Part shown: positions 42,982 to 63,526 of the stretch, piece by piece | Numbering within the stretch: the stretch's first letter is position 1 | Layout of the letters: each line of letters starts with the position of its first letter | NCBI GenBank assembly: GCA_025782575.1 | Contig: JALGYY010000035.1 | Span: forward strand, 62,001 to 126,000 | Source of the DNA: a bacterium | Lineage (GTDB): Bacteria > Orphanbacterota > Orphanbacteria > Orphanbacterales > Orphanbacteraceae | Direction of reading: 5' to 3' | Length of the DNA: 64,000 nucleotides | Translations under genes and position numbers: made by a program | Notes under the pieces: model-generated | What the model was told of the DNA's origin: nothing | What the model saw: only the letters and a program-made list of their open reading frames with translations | Database searches by the model: none

Positions 42982-43686
42982 ATGAAGAAGGCTATCATTC
43001 TGAGCGCCGCCATCTCGCTGATGGTTGCGCCGATGGCACTGGCAGAGACGATCAACGAGGTCTTTGCGAGCATGACCGGGACGGATTTTGATGAGTACAT
43101 CGAGATCTGCGCGACTCCCGGCCAGGACATGTCCGATCTCACGTTTATCGTGGTCGAAGGCGATGCCTCTTCTAACGAAGGTACCGTGGATCGTGTCTGG
43201 CCGCTCACCGGCACCTGCCCGCTTGACGGCTTCTACGTCCTTGGCGATGATGCTGTTGCCGAAGTAAACCTCAACATCGGTACGAGCAACAGGATCGAGA
43301 ATGGTACGAACTCGTACTTCCTCGTCCGTGGCACGATGAACGCCGGCCTCGGCGACGATATCGACCTTGACGATGACGGCGTGGTCGACTTCCCGGGCGG
43401 CCTGGGCTGGACGATTGTCGATGAGCTCGGCGTGAACGACGGCGGCACGGGCGATCTGAACTACGCGAGCCCTGTGCTCGGCCCGGATGGGTCCTTCGGT
43501 CCTGCCGGCCTCGCTCGTTGCTCCGACTGCGATGGCACGTACAACTTCATGTGCTTCGGTATCACGACCTGTGACGTGGACATTGACGGTTACTCGAACG
43601 TCACACCTGGTACGCCGAACGACTGCCCCGGTGGTACCGCCACCGAAGACGCGACCTGGGGTGGAGTCAAGGCGCTCTTCCGGTAG
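42982..43686 (+). CDS. Lamin-tail-like secreted protein with WGxxKxLF C-terminus
   Basis: A 234-residue secreted protein. Signal peptide MKKAIILSAAISLMVAPMALA. The body (INEVFASMTGTDFDEYIEICATPG, LTFIVVEGDASSNEG, VRGTMNAGLGDDIDLDDDGVVD) resembles lamin-tail-domain (LTD) proteins, with an acidic Ca-binding-like loop and six Cys near the C-terminus. It ends TEDATWGGVKALFR, a terminal motif shared with the two cupredoxins at 46939 and 47403. AAGGAGGAAAGG before ATG 42982 decides the start; a longer frame from 42922 has no signal at its own N-terminus. Confidence 0.8.
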   Translation: MKKAIILSAAISLMVAPMALAETINEVFASMTGTDFDEYIEICATPGQDMSDLTFIVVEGDASSNEGTVDRVWPLTGTCPLDGFYVLGDDAVAEVNLNIGTSNRIENGTNSYFLVRGTMNAGLGDDIDLDDDGVVDFPGGLGWTIVDELGVNDGGTGDLNYASPVLGPDGSFGPAGLARCSDCDGTYNFMCFGITTCDVDIDGYSNVTPGTPNDCPGGTATEDATWGGVKALFR

Positions 43687-43718
43687 ATCGGAAGCCCTTG
43701 GTGTTTTTGCAAATCGAG

Positions 43719-43750
43719 ACCGGGCTTCCCGCGAGGGAGGCCCGGTTTTT
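43719..43750 (+). terminator. Rho-independent terminator after the 42982 gene
   Basis: ACCGGGC-TTCCC-GCGA-GGGAG-GCCCGGT-type stem (43719-43746) followed by TTTTT. Confidence 0.85.
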
Positions 43751-43768
43751 ATCTTATGAGGTCCCCCT

Positions 43769-45544
43769 GTGATATCCGGTAGACGCACAGCCCAATCGGC
43801 CGCTCTCATTCTTCTGCTCACCCTTGTCCCGGGCGCTATGGCGGGGATCACCTTTGAGCCCTATAATACTCAGTCGGGTATCCAGGTGACTACAGACGGC
43901 CATATCTTCGGGTTCGGGGCAGCTGTCTCTGACATCGATAACGACGGCGATCTCGACCTCTACGTGACGGACGGGCCGGGGAGAGCGAACAGGCTGTTTC
44001 GAAACGAGGGGGGATTCTTTTTCGCCCAGATTCCGGACGCGGCAGGAGCGGGACATCTGGGAAACAGCAAGGGGAGCGCGTTCGCCGACTATGACAATGA
44101 CGGCGACAAGGATCTGTTCGTCGCGAACTATGATGGTGCCTGTGTTCTCTATCGAAACGACGGGGGGACCTTCAGCGATGTAAGCGCATTCGCCGGAATT
44201 CTGGCCGATACGCTTCGATCGACAGGGGTTTGCTGGGGAGATATCGATAACGACGGCTATCTCGATCTCTATGTGGGAAGCCGGGGAGAATCAGACGACC
44301 AGACCGAGCCGAATCTCTTCTATCATAATCAGGGAGACGGCACGTTCGTCGAATCGGGGGCGGTCTACCGGCTCGACTCCCATGCGATGACATTCCAACC
44401 TGTCTTTTCCGATTATGACCGGGACGGCGATCTCGATCTCTATTGCGCCAGTGATCGATTCACTTTGAACCGGCTCTTCCGGAACGACGGAATCATCTTC
44501 AGCGACGTCTCCGCCCTGGAAGGGGCCGCCCTATCCATGGACGGCATGGGAAACGCCATTGGTGATGTAAACGCCGATGGATTCCCCGATTTCTATGTGA
44601 CCAACACGCCGGGGGGAAACAAGCTGATCGTGAGTCAGCCCGGCGGCGGCTTTCTGGAGATGAGCGATAGTCTCGGAATCGCCGTGAACGAAATCGGGTG
44701 GGGCGCGTTCTTCTTCGATGCCGACCAGGATGGCGATGAAGATCTTCTCGAAGTGAACATGCAGGCTATGCCGAATTTTCTGTTTCGGAACGATGGGGCC
44801 GGATTGCCCTTTGCCGATGTTTCGCTGGCGGCAGGCATCGGGGGGACCGGGATCAGCTATGGTTGCGCATGCGCCGACATGGATAATGACGGCGACCTCG
44901 ATCTCTACATTTCAAACCGTGGCTCCACATGCGAAGTCTATCGAAACACGACGCCGAACGCCGGCCACTGGATCCAGATTCTTCCCGAGGGGACGGTCTC
45001 CAATCGGGACGGGATCGGGACACGTATCGAAGTCGAGGCGGGGGGGAGCACACAGTTCCGCGAAATCCGCGCCGGTTCCAGTTACTTATCCCAAATGCAG
45101 GGGCGAGCACATTTCGGTCTGGGAGCAGAGACCGGTATCGACCGCCTGACTGTCCGCTGGCCATCGGGAATCGTGAATGAGTGGTTCAATATCAGTGCCG
45201 ATCAGATGGTCACGGTGGTCGAGCAGAGCCCGACAGGGATCAGCGATACCAGTCCGGCCCGTCCGGCGCCGATCTCACTTCTCGCTTCACCCAACCCTTT
45301 CCGCCACTCCGTCACGTTTCACGCTCGCCTGCCCGAATCGACCGGGGCGATATCGGCCGAAATCTATGACATAGGCGGACGCCTGGTTCGGCGCCTTTCG
45401 ATCGACCCCACGCCCCGCAGCCTCCGCCAGATCCGATGGGATCGCCTCGACCGGCAAGGGAATGCGGTATCAGCCGGCACTTATTTTCTGCGCCTCCGTG
45501 CCGGTCGTCATGTGGTCACGTCAAAAGTGATCGCCATACGCTGA
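43769..45544 (+). CDS. FG-GAP/VCBS-repeat ASPIC-domain secreted protein with FlgD-like C-terminal domain
   Basis: A 591-residue exported protein. After the signal (LILLLTLVPGAMA) there are seven repeats with a Ca-binding DxDxDGDxDL core (e.g. DIDNDGDLDLYV, DYDNDGDKDLFV), forming an integrin-α-like β-propeller to about residue 395. An ASPIC/UnbV domain follows (NRDGIGTRIEVEAGGSTQFREI, HFGLGAETGIDRLTVRWPSG). The end is a FlgD-Ig-like domain (SPNPFRHSVTF, EIYDIGGRLVRRL, AGTYFLRLRAGRHVVTSKV), the layout of type IX-style sorting domains. The start is GTG with GAGG 8 bases upstream. Confidence 0.9.
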   Translation: MISGRRTAQSAALILLLTLVPGAMAGITFEPYNTQSGIQVTTDGHIFGFGAAVSDIDNDGDLDLYVTDGPGRANRLFRNEGGFFFAQIPDAAGAGHLGNSKGSAFADYDNDGDKDLFVANYDGACVLYRNDGGTFSDVSAFAGILADTLRSTGVCWGDIDNDGYLDLYVGSRGESDDQTEPNLFYHNQGDGTFVESGAVYRLDSHAMTFQPVFSDYDRDGDLDLYCASDRFTLNRLFRNDGIIFSDVSALEGAALSMDGMGNAIGDVNADGFPDFYVTNTPGGNKLIVSQPGGGFLEMSDSLGIAVNEIGWGAFFFDADQDGDEDLLEVNMQAMPNFLFRNDGAGLPFADVSLAAGIGGTGISYGCACADMDNDGDLDLYISNRGSTCEVYRNTTPNAGHWIQILPEGTVSNRDGIGTRIEVEAGGSTQFREIRAGSSYLSQMQGRAHFGLGAETGIDRLTVRWPSGIVNEWFNISADQMVTVVEQSPTGISDTSPARPAPISLLASPNPFRHSVTFHARLPESTGAISAEIYDIGGRLVRRLSIDPTPRSLRQIRWDRLDRQGNAVSAGTYFLRLRAGRHVVTSKVIAIR

Positions 45545-45574
45545 TCTTCGGCGACCGGCTGGCGATGCGCGCCG

Positions 45575-45604
45575 TTGACAGAAGCCTAAGCCCCCCGCTA
45601 CCCT
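45575..45604 (+). promoter_or_regulatory. Tentative promoter for the queuosine-precursor transporter
   Basis: A perfect TTGACA (45575-45580) is followed after 18 bases by TACCCT, a poor -10. Confidence 0.3.
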
Positions 45605-45615
45605 CCCATAACGTT

Positions 45616-46329
45616 ATGAATTCACCCGGCCTCAATCATGAATCCGCACCCGTCGACCTTACACGCCCGCCAGGCAGACGGGGAACTCTCTTTCTGGCAT
45701 TGACCGGGATCTTTCTGGGATCGCTCGTCATCGCCAATGTTCTCGTATTCAAACTCTGGTCATTTTTCGGTATCACATTGATAGCCGGAATCATCCCTTA
45801 CCCGGTTACGTTTCTCGCTACAGATTTGCTGAGCGAGATTTTTGGCCAGAAGTGGGCGAGCCGTGTGGTATGGGCCGGCTTTATCACCAGCTTCTGGGTG
45901 TTGATCGTGATCCTCGCCGCGGGCGCGGTGCCGGCCGTACCGATCGGTGATCGAACAGTTGCGGATATCGATTATCTCTATCAGTCAGTGTTCGGGATGA
46001 GTGTGCGGGCGATTTTCGCTTCCATGATCGCTTATCTCGCGGCCCAGCTGGTAGACGTCAAACTGTTCCATTTCTGGCGCCGGCTCACCAAGGGAAAGCA
46101 CCTCTGGCTTCGGAACAACGGCTCCACGATCTTCTCTCAGCTTCTTGATACCGTTCTGGTCGTCTCGATCCTCTTTGCGGGCAAGCTCCCCACCCGCGAT
46201 CTCCTCGCTCTGATCGGTGGCTCGTACCTGTTCAAGCTGGTAATCGCCCTGCTGGACACACCGCTCTTCTATCTCGGCGTCTGGTTCTGCAGAAAATCGG
46301 GAATCGAACCGGCTCCTCTCGATGCGTGA
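45616..46329 (+). CDS. Queuosine precursor transporter (YhhQ/QPTR, VUT family)
   Basis: A 237-residue inner-membrane protein with about six helices that imports preQ0/preQ1. Typical segments: SLVIANVLVFKLW, FLATDLLSEIFGQKWASRVVWAGF, VRAIFASMIAYLAAQLVDVKLFHFWRR and WLRNNGSTIFSQLLDTVLVVSILF. It complements queD at 25731. ATG 45616 begins a normal family N-terminus; an upstream open frame runs into the preceding gene. Confidence 0.92.
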   Translation: MNSPGLNHESAPVDLTRPPGRRGTLFLALTGIFLGSLVIANVLVFKLWSFFGITLIAGIIPYPVTFLATDLLSEIFGQKWASRVVWAGFITSFWVLIVILAAGAVPAVPIGDRTVADIDYLYQSVFGMSVRAIFASMIAYLAAQLVDVKLFHFWRRLTKGKHLWLRNNGSTIFSQLLDTVLVVSILFAGKLPTRDLLALIGGSYLFKLVIALLDTPLFYLGVWFCRKSGIEPAPLDA

Positions 46330-46346
46330 GGAGGCTGCGGAAGAGG

Positions 46347-46754
46347 TTACTTCTTCAACGTGCAGGCGATAATGGCGGGCATCGCTTTCGGTGGCCGGAT
46401 GACCTGGACGATCTCGGCAGTCTCCCCATCATACTGCACCGAAGCGATCTGGTAGCGCTCCGGATCGATCTCGTCGTCCTCTCCCAGGTAGCGTAGCAAC
46501 GCCGTCCGGAGGGCGTCCCACTCGAGAAACAGCAGGAACTGATCATCCGGATCGCTGATATTCAACGCAGCCAGGACTTCGTGGAGGCCGAGTTCCACGA
46601 TTTTGCGGATCTGTTTGCCCCGGACGATGGTCAGATAGGACGCCTCACCGCCGATTGACTTCGAGCAGGTCATCTTATTATAATCGAACGAAAGGAGCCG
46701 GTCAGCCCCGTCGACCCGGACTTTGATTCGTGATGAGCTGTCTTCACATGGCAT
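46347..46754 (-). CDS. Small protein of unknown function, remotely NifU-like
   Basis: A 135-residue soluble protein. RLLSFDYNKMTCSKSIGGEASYLTI and QIRKIVELGLHEVLAALNI, then FLLFLEWDALRTALLRYLGEDDE and IIACTLKK. TCSKSIGGE recalls the region around the first Cys of NifU/IscU-like scaffolds, but the other two cluster ligands are not where expected; Cys at 30 and near the end remain. Function not assigned. It has its own good promoter, divergent from the cupredoxin promoter. Confidence 0.7.
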   Translation of the reverse strand: MPCEDSSSRIKVRVDGADRLLSFDYNKMTCSKSIGGEASYLTIVRGKQIRKIVELGLHEVLAALNISDPDDQFLLFLEWDALRTALLRYLGEDDEIDPERYQIASVQYDGETAEIVQVIRPPKAMPAIIACTLKK

Positions 46755-46787
46755 GATTGCCTCAAAAGCCTCCCTATAATTGAACTT

Positions 46788-46816
46788 ATTGTAAACTTTG
46801 TGCGCTTACACTTCAA
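46788..46816 (-). promoter_or_regulatory. Promoter for the 46347 gene
   Basis: Minus strand TTGAAG (46816-46811), 17-base spacer, TACAAT (46793-46788). Confidence 0.65.
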
Positions 46817-46821
46817 TCTGC

Positions 46822-46851
46822 TTGACATTTTGCGACGGAATCCCATATAAT
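46822..46851 (+). promoter_or_regulatory. Consensus promoter for the cupredoxin pair
   Basis: Both boxes are perfect: TTGACA (46822-46827), 18-base spacer, TATAAT (46846-46851). The -35 is only five bases from the divergent -35 box. Confidence 0.8.
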
Positions 46852-46938
46852 GCAGTCACTTGGTGGAAATGTACCCATCGAGAGAATTTGGGCGAATCCA
46901 GCATTACCCGGCATTCAAATTATATTAAGGGGCCACAT

Positions 46939-47352
46939 ATGAACAGATTGTTATGGGTGATCCTACTGACAGCATATCTGATCCCTCCCCAGGCCGCCGC
47001 AGCGGATACTGTCCTGGTGATGCAGGTAGGGCTCACATTCCAGCCGCAGAACGTGACTATTCAGGTGGGCGATACGGTTCAGTGGGTCTGGAATGACGGA
47101 AGCCACACGGTAACGAGCGGCTCGGGGCCGTTCGATCCTAACGCCGGCTCGCTTTTCAATATGATGTTTGATGTGACCCACCAGTCGCCATCCTACACCT
47201 TTAATGGTAGCCCGGGCCTCTATCCTTACCATTGTATTCCTCACTTCTTCCTCGGTATGACCGCATCGGTAACCGTAGAAGAGGGCGGGACGACTGCTAC
47301 GGAGAGTACGACCTGGGGAGATATAAAGAAACTGTTCTCTCTGGACCATTAG
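46939..47352 (+). CDS. Secreted cupredoxin with WGxxKxLF C-terminus
   Basis: A 137-residue blue-copper (plastocyanin-like) protein. Signal peptide MNRLLWVILLTAYLIPPQAAA. Copper ligands: His in DGSHTVTSG, then Cys-x2-His-x5-Met in YHCIPHFFLGM, a complete type-1 site. It could carry electrons or copper outside the inner membrane. After the fold a Thr/Ser/Glu linker leads to ESTTWGDIKKLFSLDH, matching the terminal motif of the proteins at 42982 and 47403. AAGGGG precedes ATG 46939. The paralogue at 47403 follows after 50 bases. Confidence 0.85.
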   Translation: MNRLLWVILLTAYLIPPQAAAADTVLVMQVGLTFQPQNVTIQVGDTVQWVWNDGSHTVTSGSGPFDPNAGSLFNMMFDVTHQSPSYTFNGSPGLYPYHCIPHFFLGMTASVTVEEGGTTATESTTWGDIKKLFSLDH

Positions 47353-47402
47353 ACCACCAAGGGGTCGAATCACCGTTTCGTCTCGAGAAGGGGACCCGGT
47401 CT

Positions 47403-47843
47403 ATGAAAGGCATTATGCGCAGCTATATCCTGGGTCTCCTCATCTGCTGTGGACTCGGGCTTTCGGCCGGCACCGCAGGCGCTACGACTTACCTGGTCAA
47501 CGCATCCGGGATTTCGTTCAGTCCTGCCGATATTGTGATCGCCCTGGGTGACACCGTTCACTGGCATGTCGATTTCGGTAATCACACGGTCACCTCGGGA
47601 TTCGACTCAACTGAAGCGAATTGGGGCGCACTTTTCGATTCCCCTCTTACTACCACGAACAAGGACTTCTTCTACACCTTTGATGATACATCCGGCGTCT
47701 ATCCATACTTCTGCCTAACTCATCTGGTGGCATTCGGCATGACTGGAACGGTAACAGTCGAAGAAGACACACCAACCTCCATAAAACTCGGCCGGTTCGT
47801 GAATACGGACTGGGGCCGACTGAAAGAGCTCTTCCGACGATAG
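47403..47843 (+). CDS. Second secreted cupredoxin with WGxxKxLF C-terminus
   Basis: A 146-residue paralogue of the preceding cupredoxin. Signal peptide with ILGLLICCGLGLSAGTAGA. Ligands: His in GNHTVTSG and Cys-x2-His-x5-Met in YFCLTHLVAFGM. The fold ends TGTVTVEE as in its neighbour, then a linker and NTDWGRLKELFRR. The two share only limited identity, so the duplication is old or both were recruited separately. A terminator at 47871 ends the unit. Confidence 0.85.
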   Translation: MKGIMRSYILGLLICCGLGLSAGTAGATTYLVNASGISFSPADIVIALGDTVHWHVDFGNHTVTSGFDSTEANWGALFDSPLTTTNKDFFYTFDDTSGVYPYFCLTHLVAFGMTGTVTVEEDTPTSIKLGRFVNTDWGRLKELFRR

Positions 47844-59613: not shown

Positions 59614-59685
59614 TGACCTGTGCGGTTTCTGTTACCCCGCCGGGCAAGCGATCATGTCGAGGCCACCCCGGAGGGAATGCACATC

Positions 59686-62520
59686 ATGATGAGACCACGC
59701 GCCTCATTGATTCTAGGTCTCCTGATCCTTGCACTCCTGTTGTTCCCCGATTTCACTCTCGCGCAGAATGTCGGTTCCATCCAGGGTCGTGTAAAAGACT
59801 CCGATACCGGTGAACCGATCGCGTTCACGGATGTGATTCTGGTTGGTACCGGTAAGGGGACTATCACAAAGAAAGACGGTACCTTCATCCTCGTGCAGGT
59901 TCCGGAGGGCTACTATCAGGTCCGACTGAATCGGATGGGATACTTGAGCAAGGTTCTCGATCAGGTCAAGGTCGAAGCGGGATACTCGAAGAAGCTGAAC
60001 GTCAGTATGGATCCGATCGCCGTCCGCGAAGTAGAAACTATTGAAGTTTCGGGGGAACGGGCACTGGTCGATGTGCAAATCGCAAAAACCTCGCACTACG
60101 TCACGGCAAAAGAGATAGAAGCCATGGCTGTAACAGTAATAGACGATGTAGTCGGCAAGCAGGCCGGCGTGATCGTTGAAGACGACGCCCTTTATGTACG
60201 TGGTGGACGTGCCGAGGATACGGTCTACCGCGTCGACGGCGTCATCATCCGCGATCTGATCACCGGAAGAAGCTCCGCGGGTACCATCAGCGCCCGCACC
60301 GTGCAGAGCGTTGAGATCATTACAGGGGGATTCGACGCTGAATTCGGCCAGGCACTTGCCGGGGTTATCGACATCAAGACCAAAGAGGGTAGCCTGGATT
60401 ACCATGGCTACGGGGAGTACCAGACCAACGTTCCTTTCCTCGCCGGTTGGCGATCCGACGGGACCTTCAGCCGCGAAAAGCTCGACTTCAATCTCGATAA
60501 TTTTGAATTTCAGATCGAGGGGGCGGAGCCTCTAAGCAACTTCGGTCTGAAACGCCTTGGTATGGATGTCCCGGGCAAGCTCACATTCTTCCTCAGCCTG
60601 TCAGGTGCGTTCGACGACACCTACCTGCCTGTCCAGGCTGCAGACGATCCCAGGGGTGCCACCCCGGACCAGGCCTCAAGCACACTGAACTCGAATTACC
60701 GAGACAAATTCCTCGGCTTCGAATTCGGATATGATAGTGACTTCTGGACACCCCGCGCTCAGAATCGATGGCAAGGGCTTTATAAAATGTCCTGGCAGGC
60801 AAACGGCCGAAACAAGCTCAATCTGTCATTTTCGAAGAAGCTCGAAATTGATCATGGTTTCTTCCGCCGGAATCTCGTCAATGCAGTCGATCCCAGCTCC
60901 ACCTCGTCGAACTACAACTACGAGTGGAGCTTCCGCAAGGATCACGACTACACCTATACCGACGATACGAATACAATCACATTCGATTGGCGAAAGATCT
61001 GGAACAGACGGTTTACGACTACGCTACGCCTCTCTCGGGCGTTCAACGCTTTCTTTCAGAATGTGAACGGCAAGCCCTGGTTCGAATATCAGGAAGGCTA
61101 CGACCAGGACCTGACAGAAGAGGAAGATAATGTCTTCTTCGAGGATACCGGGGACAATGAAGTCTGGCATAACCGTTATACCGAAGCGTGGACCGCCTAC
61201 ATGGACGGCGTACACAAGAAAGGCGATCACCACACGATCAAGGGTGGGTTCGAGCTTTCCTATGAAGATGTTCAGTTCCTGACCATCTCCGAGCCATGGG
61301 TGTTCGACGAGGACGGTCTGGGGCGATTTCACGATCTGTGGCATGTCAACCCGACCACCGGCGCGATGTTCATACAGGACAAATTCATATACGAAGGTTT
61401 TGTCGGAAATATAGGCCTCCGCTACGACTACTGGTTCCCTGGAAAAGCGGCCGAGGACGCCATCGCCGACACATCGCGCGATGCATTCAACCCGACACTC
61501 CTCTCGGAGTTCGAGAACGACACGCAGACCCTTCTGGGGCGCCAGTTCAAAGCGACGCTCCTTCCTCGTTTCCAGGTCTCCCACCCGGTGACCGACCGGT
61601 CTCATCTCTTCTTCAATTACGGCCACTTCTCCCAGAGACCGAACTACTTCTTCGTCTATTCCAAGATCGCTTCCGTTTCGAGCGAGGACTTCCCCCTTAT
61701 CGGCAATCTCAATCTCGACCCCAAGCGGGAAGTGAAATACGAACTCGGCGCGCGCCACCAGGTCCGAAACGACATGGCCCTCGATTTCTCCGTCTTTTAC
61801 AACGACATTTACGACTACCCCAAGTCGGTCAGATTCGAACGACGGGGCCGATCCGACTTTTTTGTCTACATCAACGAAGACTTCGCGAGAGCCCGGGGAT
61901 TCGAGCTCGAACTCCGAAAGAAGCGCACCAAGTATCTCTGGGCGCGAGCCGCCTACACCTACTCCGTCGTATCCGGTAAAGCGTCCGATCCCAATCAGTC
62001 GAATCTGCTTCAGGAGGAAGTGGGCGCGTTCACCCAGATAGGTGAGGATGAAGAATTCCTGTTCTGGAACCGTCCCCACAAACTTACCCTCGATCTGACA
62101 ATGGGTGTGGGTCCCAAAACCGATCCGCCTACCGTCTTCGGCTATACACTCCCCCGTGACTGGTCTCTCAATCTCTACTACTGGGTCCAGTCGGGACGGG
62201 CGTATACGCCGACAAATGATGCCGACGAGGAAGTGGCGAAAGAGAACTCAGGCAATGCCCCGTTCGAAACCACTTTCGATATGAGATTTTCGAAGGGCAT
62301 CCAGGTTTGGGGATCGAAGTTGAAGTACCTGCTCGAGGTGAGAAACCTCTTCAACCATATATACCCCCGGCGGATCGACGCGATCACCGGTAGAGGATTC
62401 GAGATCGGCGAAGGCACGCTGTCGGGAGAGCAGCCCCCATCGAGATTTGTACAATTCGGCGACCCTTCCTTCTGGAGTCGACCCCGTTCGGTGCGCGTCG
62501 GCCTTTCGACCGAGTTTTAG
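59686..62520 (+). CDS. TonB-dependent receptor with carboxypeptidase-regulatory-like N-terminal domain
   Basis: A 944-residue outer-membrane receptor. Signal peptide with LGLLILALLLFPDFTLAQ, then a CarboxypepD_reg domain (GSIQGRVKDSDTGEPIAFTDVI, GYYQVRLNRMGYLSK), a plug (KTSHYVTAKEIEAM, ALYVRGGRAEDTVYRVDGVII, VQSVEIITGGFDAEFGQALAGVIDIKTKEG) and a ~700-residue β-barrel ending RVGLSTEF with a terminal Phe. It resembles Oar-like receptors. No TonB box is evident. The PorV-like gene begins two bases after its stop, so it may help place a surface protein. ATG 59686 fits GGAGGG better than the closer ATG 59677. Confidence 0.92.
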   Translation: MMRPRASLILGLLILALLLFPDFTLAQNVGSIQGRVKDSDTGEPIAFTDVILVGTGKGTITKKDGTFILVQVPEGYYQVRLNRMGYLSKVLDQVKVEAGYSKKLNVSMDPIAVREVETIEVSGERALVDVQIAKTSHYVTAKEIEAMAVTVIDDVVGKQAGVIVEDDALYVRGGRAEDTVYRVDGVIIRDLITGRSSAGTISARTVQSVEIITGGFDAEFGQALAGVIDIKTKEGSLDYHGYGEYQTNVPFLAGWRSDGTFSREKLDFNLDNFEFQIEGAEPLSNFGLKRLGMDVPGKLTFFLSLSGAFDDTYLPVQAADDPRGATPDQASSTLNSNYRDKFLGFEFGYDSDFWTPRAQNRWQGLYKMSWQANGRNKLNLSFSKKLEIDHGFFRRNLVNAVDPSSTSSNYNYEWSFRKDHDYTYTDDTNTITFDWRKIWNRRFTTTLRLSRAFNAFFQNVNGKPWFEYQEGYDQDLTEEEDNVFFEDTGDNEVWHNRYTEAWTAYMDGVHKKGDHHTIKGGFELSYEDVQFLTISEPWVFDEDGLGRFHDLWHVNPTTGAMFIQDKFIYEGFVGNIGLRYDYWFPGKAAEDAIADTSRDAFNPTLLSEFENDTQTLLGRQFKATLLPRFQVSHPVTDRSHLFFNYGHFSQRPNYFFVYSKIASVSSEDFPLIGNLNLDPKREVKYELGARHQVRNDMALDFSVFYNDIYDYPKSVRFERRGRSDFFVYINEDFARARGFELELRKKRTKYLWARAAYTYSVVSGKASDPNQSNLLQEEVGAFTQIGEDEEFLFWNRPHKLTLDLTMGVGPKTDPPTVFGYTLPRDWSLNLYYWVQSGRAYTPTNDADEEVAKENSGNAPFETTFDMRFSKGIQVWGSKLKYLLEVRNLFNHIYPRRIDAITGRGFEIGEGTLSGEQPPSRFVQFGDPSFWSRPRSVRVGLSTEF

Positions 62521-62521
62521 C

Positions 62522-63526
62522 ATGAATCGTTTTGCACCAGTCATTCTACTCGCCGCTCTGGCCGCCCCCCCCTCTATCTCGATTGCTCAATCGAACTTCG
62601 GCGAAGAACGTGTCGGAACGAACATGGGCACATTCCTCAAGATCGGCGTAGGTGCGAAAGCGGCCGCCCTCGGGGGAGCGTTCACGGCGATAGCAGACGA
62701 TCCGACCGCCATGTTCTGGAATCCGGCCGGACTTGCCAACCTGACCGAGCGGGAGGTCTACTTTGCCCACACATCATGGATTGCGGACATCGACTATGAG
62801 TATGTCGCCTACGTACAACCTGTACCGTTCCTGAACGAAGGTTCCCTCGGGTTTCATGTGGGAACGCTCCGAACTTCGATGAACGAAACCACGGAATTGC
62901 AGCCGGGAGGGACCGGCCGAGAATTCACCTATTCCGATCTCTTCATCGGCGTGGCCGCGGCACAGAAGTTTACCGACAAGATCTCGCTCGGGTTCGGATT
63001 GAAATATATCCGTGAAGATTTCGGGGGTTCCGTGGGGAATCCCAGCCTGAATACCTGGACAGCCGATTTCGGGACGTTCTATCGAATCGGCGGCCGGGAT
63101 GCTGTCTTCTCGGTTGCGCTCCTCAACTTCGGCCCCGAATGGCGACCGGACGGTACATTCCTCGAGTTCGAAGGGGATAACTTCGCACAGGATCGTGACT
63201 TTGAAAGCTTTCCCTCGCCCACAAGTTTCAAGGCGGCACTCGCCGGAATGATCTGGGAAAACGGCGCGTTCCGGCAGAGCGGGACTGTCGAAATGAATCG
63301 CCCGCCGGATAACGCGGAAACCTACAGACTGGCGACCGAACTGACATATCACGGCATGCTCGCTCTTCGCACCGGCTACAATCTGAACGCAGATGAACTG
63401 AAGTGGAGCGGAGGGATCGGCTTGCAGTTCCGGTCTTCCGGAATCGGCGAGAGAATCGATTATGCGTTCACCCAGAGTGAGAACTTCGGCCGTGTGGATC
63501 GCCTCTCCGCGGGAGTGAAGTTTTAA
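62522..63526 (+). CDS. PorV/PorQ-family outer-membrane protein
   Basis: A 334-residue barrel. Signal (ILLAALAAPPSISIA), then GTFLKIGVGAKAAALGGAFTAIADDPTAMFWNPAGLA, the hallmark of PorV/UPF0164 (FadL-like) proteins, and a strand-rich body ending LSAGVKF. In type IX secretion systems PorV carries secreted substrates on the surface; here it is coupled to a TonB receptor and a lipoprotein. No porK-P genes are visible. Confidence 0.9.
   Translation: MNRFAPVILLAALAAPPSISIAQSNFGEERVGTNMGTFLKIGVGAKAAALGGAFTAIADDPTAMFWNPAGLANLTEREVYFAHTSWIADIDYEYVAYVQPVPFLNEGSLGFHVGTLRTSMNETTELQPGGTGREFTYSDLFIGVAAAQKFTDKISLGFGLKYIREDFGGSVGNPSLNTWTADFGTFYRIGGRDAVFSVALLNFGPEWRPDGTFLEFEGDNFAQDRDFESFPSPTSFKAALAGMIWENGAFRQSGTVEMNRPPDNAETYRLATELTYHGMLALRTGYNLNADELKWSGGIGLQFRSSGIGERIDYAFTQSENFGRVDRLSAGVKF

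Follow-up and report, generated by a model that had tools for sequence, protein, structure and literature searches.

Secretion of type IX substrates in Bacteroidota requires the final residues of their C-terminal domain, the last 22 being enough (PMC4804311). This domain has an invariant basic residue in its final motif (PMC11969387), and in type A domains the sole conserved residue of the contact surface is a Lys binding PorV (PMC10994853). Here, we analysed a stretch of 64,000 nucleotides (hereafter the window) from a genome of the phylum Orphanbacterota (contig JALGYY010000035.1, positions 62,001 to 126,000), in which a lamin-tail-like protein and two cupredoxins end in a common peptide, the tag W-G-x-[VI]-K-x-L-F-R, or in variants of it. 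A first-pass annotation had read this peptide as a sorting or retention tag. The tag resembles a shipping label for exported proteins, one that is so far undescribed. Its position, its exclusivity to signal-peptide proteins and the diversity of its passengers make it very probable that it is a real targeting tag.

C-terminal tags determine which proteins a bacterium displays outside. The present tag, found on up to about 50 proteins per genome in phyla that are nearly without cultured members, has a length that would allow grafting onto any protein; no family library searched contains it. Nothing relevant to the motif or to sorting in the tag-bearing phyla appeared in the literature searched, subscription literature being outside the search.

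Occurrence, position and restriction to secreted proteins

The genome holding the window (4.88 Mb) contains 43 matches to the DNA pattern for W-G-x-x-K-x-[LF]-[FY], in which no stop codon is specified, against 0 for the reversed control. In 42 of these 43 matches the C-terminus lies at most 12 residues from the Trp, which is the bias-free figure for terminal position; the sets from other phyla were retrieved with a pattern containing the stop, and their 100% terminal position is built in. With Arg and the stop codon added (30 bases), 42 matches were observed against 0.004 expected from base composition, and the reversed control gave 0 matches here and in all genomes searched with the stop-containing pattern. 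The sole internal match, PEEGNWGNVKGLFR, is found on the minus strand of L015:1-2865 (G000:C13 about 431,800), in a protein of CarboxypepD_reg/VWA/YfbK_C architecture with a von Willebrand domain, and is perhaps a fusion added behind a former C-terminus. Elsewhere in this genome, five small secreted paralogues stand in tandem (G000:C21:223729-226221), each with the tag at its end.

The enrichment at the C-termini of signal-peptide proteins that the first-pass annotation had predicted was recovered both within this genome and beyond it. In a 1.28-Mb sample of contiguous stretches (1046 genes called), which includes the window itself, the source of the original observation, the tag is present on 12 of 420 genes with a signal-peptide start and on none of the 626 others (P = 1.6e-5), by a signal-peptide rule that is crude (no SignalP) and the same for both groups; an equal presence on cytosolic proteins was therefore not observed in the sample. 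Across phyla, signal-peptide-like starts were found in 153/157 tagged proteins against 248/1120 comparison proteins. Under a relaxed definition, the stretches read from the window's genome hold 49 tagged open reading frames (ORFs), 44 of them with a signal-peptide-like start. Of the remaining five, four are fragmentary and short or sit at the edge of a contig; the fifth (L186, 171 residues) has no signal peptide by the crude rule. A de novo count of fixed-position C-terminal residue pairs in signal-peptide genes yielded two sets: W-9/G-8/K-5/L-3/F-2/R-1, corresponding to the tag, here recovered unprompted, and K-6/L-3/R-1, corresponding to the end of type IX-type tails. The tag thus displays the general features of a C-terminal sorting tag, namely a common short end borne by unrelated secreted proteins, and not by cytosolic ones, throughout a genome.

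All seven genomes of the window's phylum carry the tag, with 16-47 matches in each and 0 in the reversed control. In a scan of 84,980 species, the matches listed include Eiseniibacteriota, Krumholzibacteriota, Fermentibacterota/Aegiribacteria, Latescibacterota and Effluviviacota, together with one Zixiibacteriota and several loosely labelled assemblies. Some of these labels (“Fibrobacter”, “Gemmatimonas”, Verrucomicrobia, Reyranella) are doubtful, and the “Fibrobacter” and “Gemmatimonas” matches belong to the phylum of the Krumholzibacteriota genomes. Among 80 genomes taken as a set, Krumholzibacteriota included, 49 bear the tag, in 1-21 copies per genome. A set of 64 genomes including some Latescibacterota gave 1-3 matches in 23 genomes, and two among the loci checked there proved to be spurious 12-residue ORFs. 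For Eiseniibacteriota, Krumholzibacteriota and their relatives, the list of tagged proteins provides candidates for surface or envelope proteins.

Anatomy of the tag and diversity of its passengers

The consensus of 187 tagged proteins is [TV]-E-x-x-[ST]-W-G-x-[VI]-K-x-L-F-R-COOH, of which W-G-x-[VI]-K-x-L-F-R constitutes the nine-residue core. Position by position, it comprises T/V (-14), E (-13), S/T (-10, 90%), W (-9), G (-8, with S in 7%), any residue (-7), V/I (-6), K (-5), a small or polar residue (-4), L (-3, about 97%), F (-2) and R (-1), and then the stop; in the logo, the search pattern itself accounts for the 100% at W, K, F and R, but not fully for L-3, G-8 and the residues upstream. 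Relaxed searches retrieved variants at W, K, F and R in a minority only. No hydrophobic stretch follows the motif in 178 tails, all ending at the Arg, which bears out the earlier remark that the tail has no membrane helix.

The conservation pattern suggests that the tag forms a short amphipathic helix. The variable positions -7 and -4 share one helix face, Ser/Thr occupies the N-cap site in 90% of the sequences, and no proline occurs at -10 to -1 in the 187 proteins. The hydrophobic moment peaks near 110 degrees (0.66) with 180 degrees close behind (0.58), and because these values differ little the helix is likely rather than shown. AlphaFold places a terminal helix in the tails of both cupredoxin 1 and the lamin-tail-like protein, at a predicted local distance difference test (pLDDT) score around or below 50, the models of both proteins being poor.

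At the conserved residues the codons differ, many being synonymous, including those for Lys, Phe, Leu, Arg and the stop. The peptide is therefore the conserved unit and selection acts on the protein; a DNA-level element is ruled out by this codon variation.

After removal of the last 16 residues, the 187 tagged proteins fall into about 72 passenger clusters. Their Pfam domains include beta-helix, Copper-bind, LTD, CHRD, pre-peptidase C-terminal and pullulanase X25, among others, and NCBIfam recognizes choice-of-anchor W, E, V and X domains. “Choice-of-anchor” is the NCBI name for domains that different lineages provide with different sorting signals. The tail is therefore indeed borne by unrelated folds, as had been proposed from the window. 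Homologous passengers end either in the tag, in a near variant (WGSIKAMYR, FGSVKSLFR, WGTIKALYQ) or in a FlgD-type tail, and no Pfam or NCBIfam model spans the tail. This tail swapping, together with the enrichment and the unrelated passengers, supports reading the tag as a probable sorting or retention signal. At least two tagged proteins, in L075 and L140, are lipoprotein-like. At L075:1-4538, lipoprotein-like genes lie in tandem and include domain-tag-domain-tag fusions within one reading frame.

In the window, the three motif ends lie at the positions and in the frames first assigned to them, each before a stop codon, and each protein begins with a signal peptide (coordinates are those of the window, with genome positions in brackets):

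42982..43686, + strand: lamin-tail-like secreted protein, 234 amino acids, with signal peptide MKKAIILSAAISLMVAPMALA and the canonical tagged C-terminus
43657..43683, + strand: its tag WGGVKALFR, after TATEDAT, stop codon immediately next (G000:C13:105657-105686)
43769..45544, + strand: FG-GAP/UnbV_ASPIC protein with a FlgD/type IX-type C-terminal domain in place of the tag
46939..47352, + strand: cupredoxin 1 (Copper-bind, PF00127, 5.6e-11), 137 amino acids, with signal peptide and off-consensus tag end
47314..47349, + strand: tag variant WGDIKKLFSLDH of cupredoxin 1, then stop (G000:C13:109314)
47403..47843, + strand: cupredoxin 2 (Copper-bind, PF00127, 2.6e-6), 146 amino acids, with signal peptide and tag end
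47811..47840, + strand: tag variant WGRLKELFRR of cupredoxin 2, then stop (G000:C13:109811)

The claim that these proteins end alike stands for the motif, but the canonical end is limited to the lamin-tail-like protein: the cupredoxins, each with the tag behind a plastocyanin-like domain, diverge after the Phe (...LFSLDH and ...LFRR against ...LFR genome-wide). The lamin-tail-like protein has no Pfam match on its own and aligns with LTD-like relatives, among which that of L039 is 56% identical and keeps the tag. The FlgD-like end attributed to the FG-GAP protein was confirmed by two models above their curated cut-offs, PF13860 (28.1 bits, cut-off 27) and TIGR04183 (27.7 bits, cut-off 23).

Candidate routes, receptors and competing explanations

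We lean towards a reading in which the nine C-terminal residues would be a transplantable address tag with an envelope receptor and a delivery role; within it, we infer the helix, the receptor and the destination. Sec would export the protein across the inner membrane, where the signal peptide would be cleaved, and the free C-terminal peptide, carried by a short linker rich in Thr/Ser/Glu, would project beyond the folded domain. The tail would then dock, probably as an amphipathic helix with its terminal Arg exposed, into a single dedicated envelope receptor, which would pass the protein on to a destination at or beyond the outer membrane. The favoured route would be the encoded SprA/PorV-family outer-membrane pathway, in which the tag would take the place of the FlgD-type domain in a very short form. 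Two components of this pathway are:

62519..63526, + strand: PorV/PorQ-family outer-membrane protein (NF033709, 140.9 bits, cut-off 90)
G000:C21:304360-310473 (L180:7360-13473): SprA/Sov translocon (TIGR04189, 533 bits)

The PorV/PorQ-family protein may be a shuttle like those of type IX systems, its tie to the tag being presumed; its gene lies immediately downstream of a TonB-receptor-like gene (59680-62520). SprA was found in 7/7 genomes of the window's phylum against 0/14 controls, and FlgD-type tails number 110-149 per genome in this phylum. In the 80-genome set, PorV-family genes number 5-17 in most genomes and 2-17 overall. Type IX-type tails end in [KR]-x(1,2)-hydrophobic-hydrophobic-[RK] in 73/91 cases against 12/1634 other ORFs, an ending that resembles K-x-L-F-R and would be compatible with a shared route.

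Several observations weigh against this reading, most of them against the type IX-like SprA/PorV route, which can be put forward only tentatively. In the 80-genome set, SprA is present in 42/49 tag-positive and 25/31 tag-free genomes (P = 0.55), and two genomes with 6-7 tags (G020 and G085) have no SprA match, their completeness not being given. GldM (GldM_1st) was found in 0/7 genomes of the window's phylum, GldL not having been searched, and PorV copy number shows no clear correlation with tag number (rho 0.20, P = 0.07). For 124 tagged proteins, the 25 commonest families include no type IX sorting-domain model (TIGR04183/TIGR04131); the exception is one tagged protein with an internal FlgD domain. 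Genes tracking the tag, for which the first-pass annotation had proposed a search, did not emerge from the comparison of SprA, GldM, PorV copy number and neighbourhoods, and no receptor came out of these comparisons. The evidence for the helix, finally, is limited to the conservation pattern, the AlphaFold models being of low confidence. Independently of the tag, SprA/Sov occurs with many FlgD-type tails and no detectable GldM throughout the window's phylum, which may represent a type IX-like system outside Bacteroidota that is powered differently.

Somewhat more doubtful is a dedicated receptor outside the type IX system, which would hold the tagged proteins in the envelope, perhaps at the outer membrane or in an envelope complex, as a cargo-loading peptide is captured. 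The failure of SprA to separate tag-positive from tag-free genomes and the absence of the GldM motor would fit such a receptor, as would the only conserved neighbour of tagged genes that we found, a FlgT-like secreted protein with weak FlgT_M/FlgT_C matches. Members of this family lie at L247:5868-6950 and L255:2785-3771. In a low-tag group of about 12 genomes, the tagged gene adjoins this gene or is near it, in a slot usually preceded by a LarA-like gene (Lar_N). The operon order in L247-L259 is LarA-like gene (Lar_N), FlgT-like secreted protein and small tagged secreted protein (genomes G151, G156, G163, G164, G166, G025, G107, G116, G117, G118, G008 and G115). The passengers in this slot are unlike one another and retain the signal peptide and the tag, which favours the address-tag reading; one set has, by eye, a small thioredoxin-type domain without a profile match. 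However, neighbourhood clustering of 117 loci revealed no partner gene in the tag-rich phyla, and the FlgT-like gene was found neither beside tags in those phyla nor in the 1.28-Mb sample of the window's genome. As a candidate receptor, it is therefore a lead whose generality is unproven.

A receptor-free amphipathic membrane anchor, with W, V/I, L and F in the leaflet and K/R on the head groups, is improbable. The hydrophobic positions -9, -6, -3 and -2 do lie on one side of the helical wheel, with K-5 and R-1 adjacent, but residue identity is fixed beyond hydrophobicity (G/S at -8, L in about 97% at -3) and the exact terminus is kept. Moreover, nine residues are very short for this purpose, and the lipoprotein-like proteins of L075 and L140 would already be anchored. 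Slightly less probable still is a sortase-like enzyme that cleaves or joins the tag, as with PEP-CTERM, LPXTG and MYXO-CTERM. The tag does take the place of such signals on choice-of-anchor domains, but it has no transmembrane helix and no following basic cluster, leaving nothing to hold the tail in the membrane while an enzyme of this kind acted. Sortase-like genes did not recur among the neighbours, exosortase, rhombosortase and sortase not having been searched genome-wide. Chance or shared ancestry of three adjacent genes, for which only the paralogy of the two cupredoxins speaks, is refuted by the genome-wide and cross-phylum counts (42-43 matches against 0.004 expected, controls 0, several phyla, about 72 passenger clusters).

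Comparison with described sorting signals

The tag is close to the type IX signals of Bacteroidota (type A, TIGR04183, and type B) in several respects. Both combine a Sec signal peptide with a C-terminal signal on unrelated passengers, and both have a basic residue near the end, the last residues being important (PMC11969387, PMC10994853, PMC4804311). SprA and PorV-family proteins are encoded in the same genomes, and passengers of the same family bear either tail. In contrast, the tag has nine residues and a W-G motif instead of a beta-sandwich domain of 40-80 residues, it is probably helical whereas the type IX signal is a strand, the GldM motor was not found and SprA is not predictive. If the SprA/PorV route is true, nine residues, and not a whole domain, would be the minimal type IX signal; if it is false, the tag would indicate a new sorting machine.

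PEP-CTERM/exosortase, LPXTG/sortase, GlyGly-CTERM/rhombosortase and MYXO-CTERM/myxosortase likewise involve a short region of homology with which numerous unrelated secreted proteins end, and their signals share choice-of-anchor domains with the tag. Unlike them, the tag has no transmembrane helix, no basic cluster and no Cys, GlyGly or PEP signature, and it ends exactly at the Arg. Since the tag lacks both the structural features tested for sortase-type tags (helix and basic cluster) and the domain of type IX signals, it is classed as neither sortase-type nor type IX. It could, with some reserve, belong to an undescribed sorting system of phyla related to the Fibrobacterota, Chlorobiota and Bacteroidota (FCB) group, with its own envelope receptor and independent of type IX, sortases and exosortases, in which the tag would be nine residues with near-invariant W, K, F and R, probably helical.

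The cargo-loading peptide of encapsulins is a short conserved C-terminal peptide that docks, on a flexible linker, into its partner, and its cargo is cytosolic. The tag is likewise a short conserved C-terminal tail on a flexible linker, for which docking into a partner is proposed; in contrast to encapsulin cargo, the tagged proteins have signal peptides, number dozens per genome and extend across phyla.

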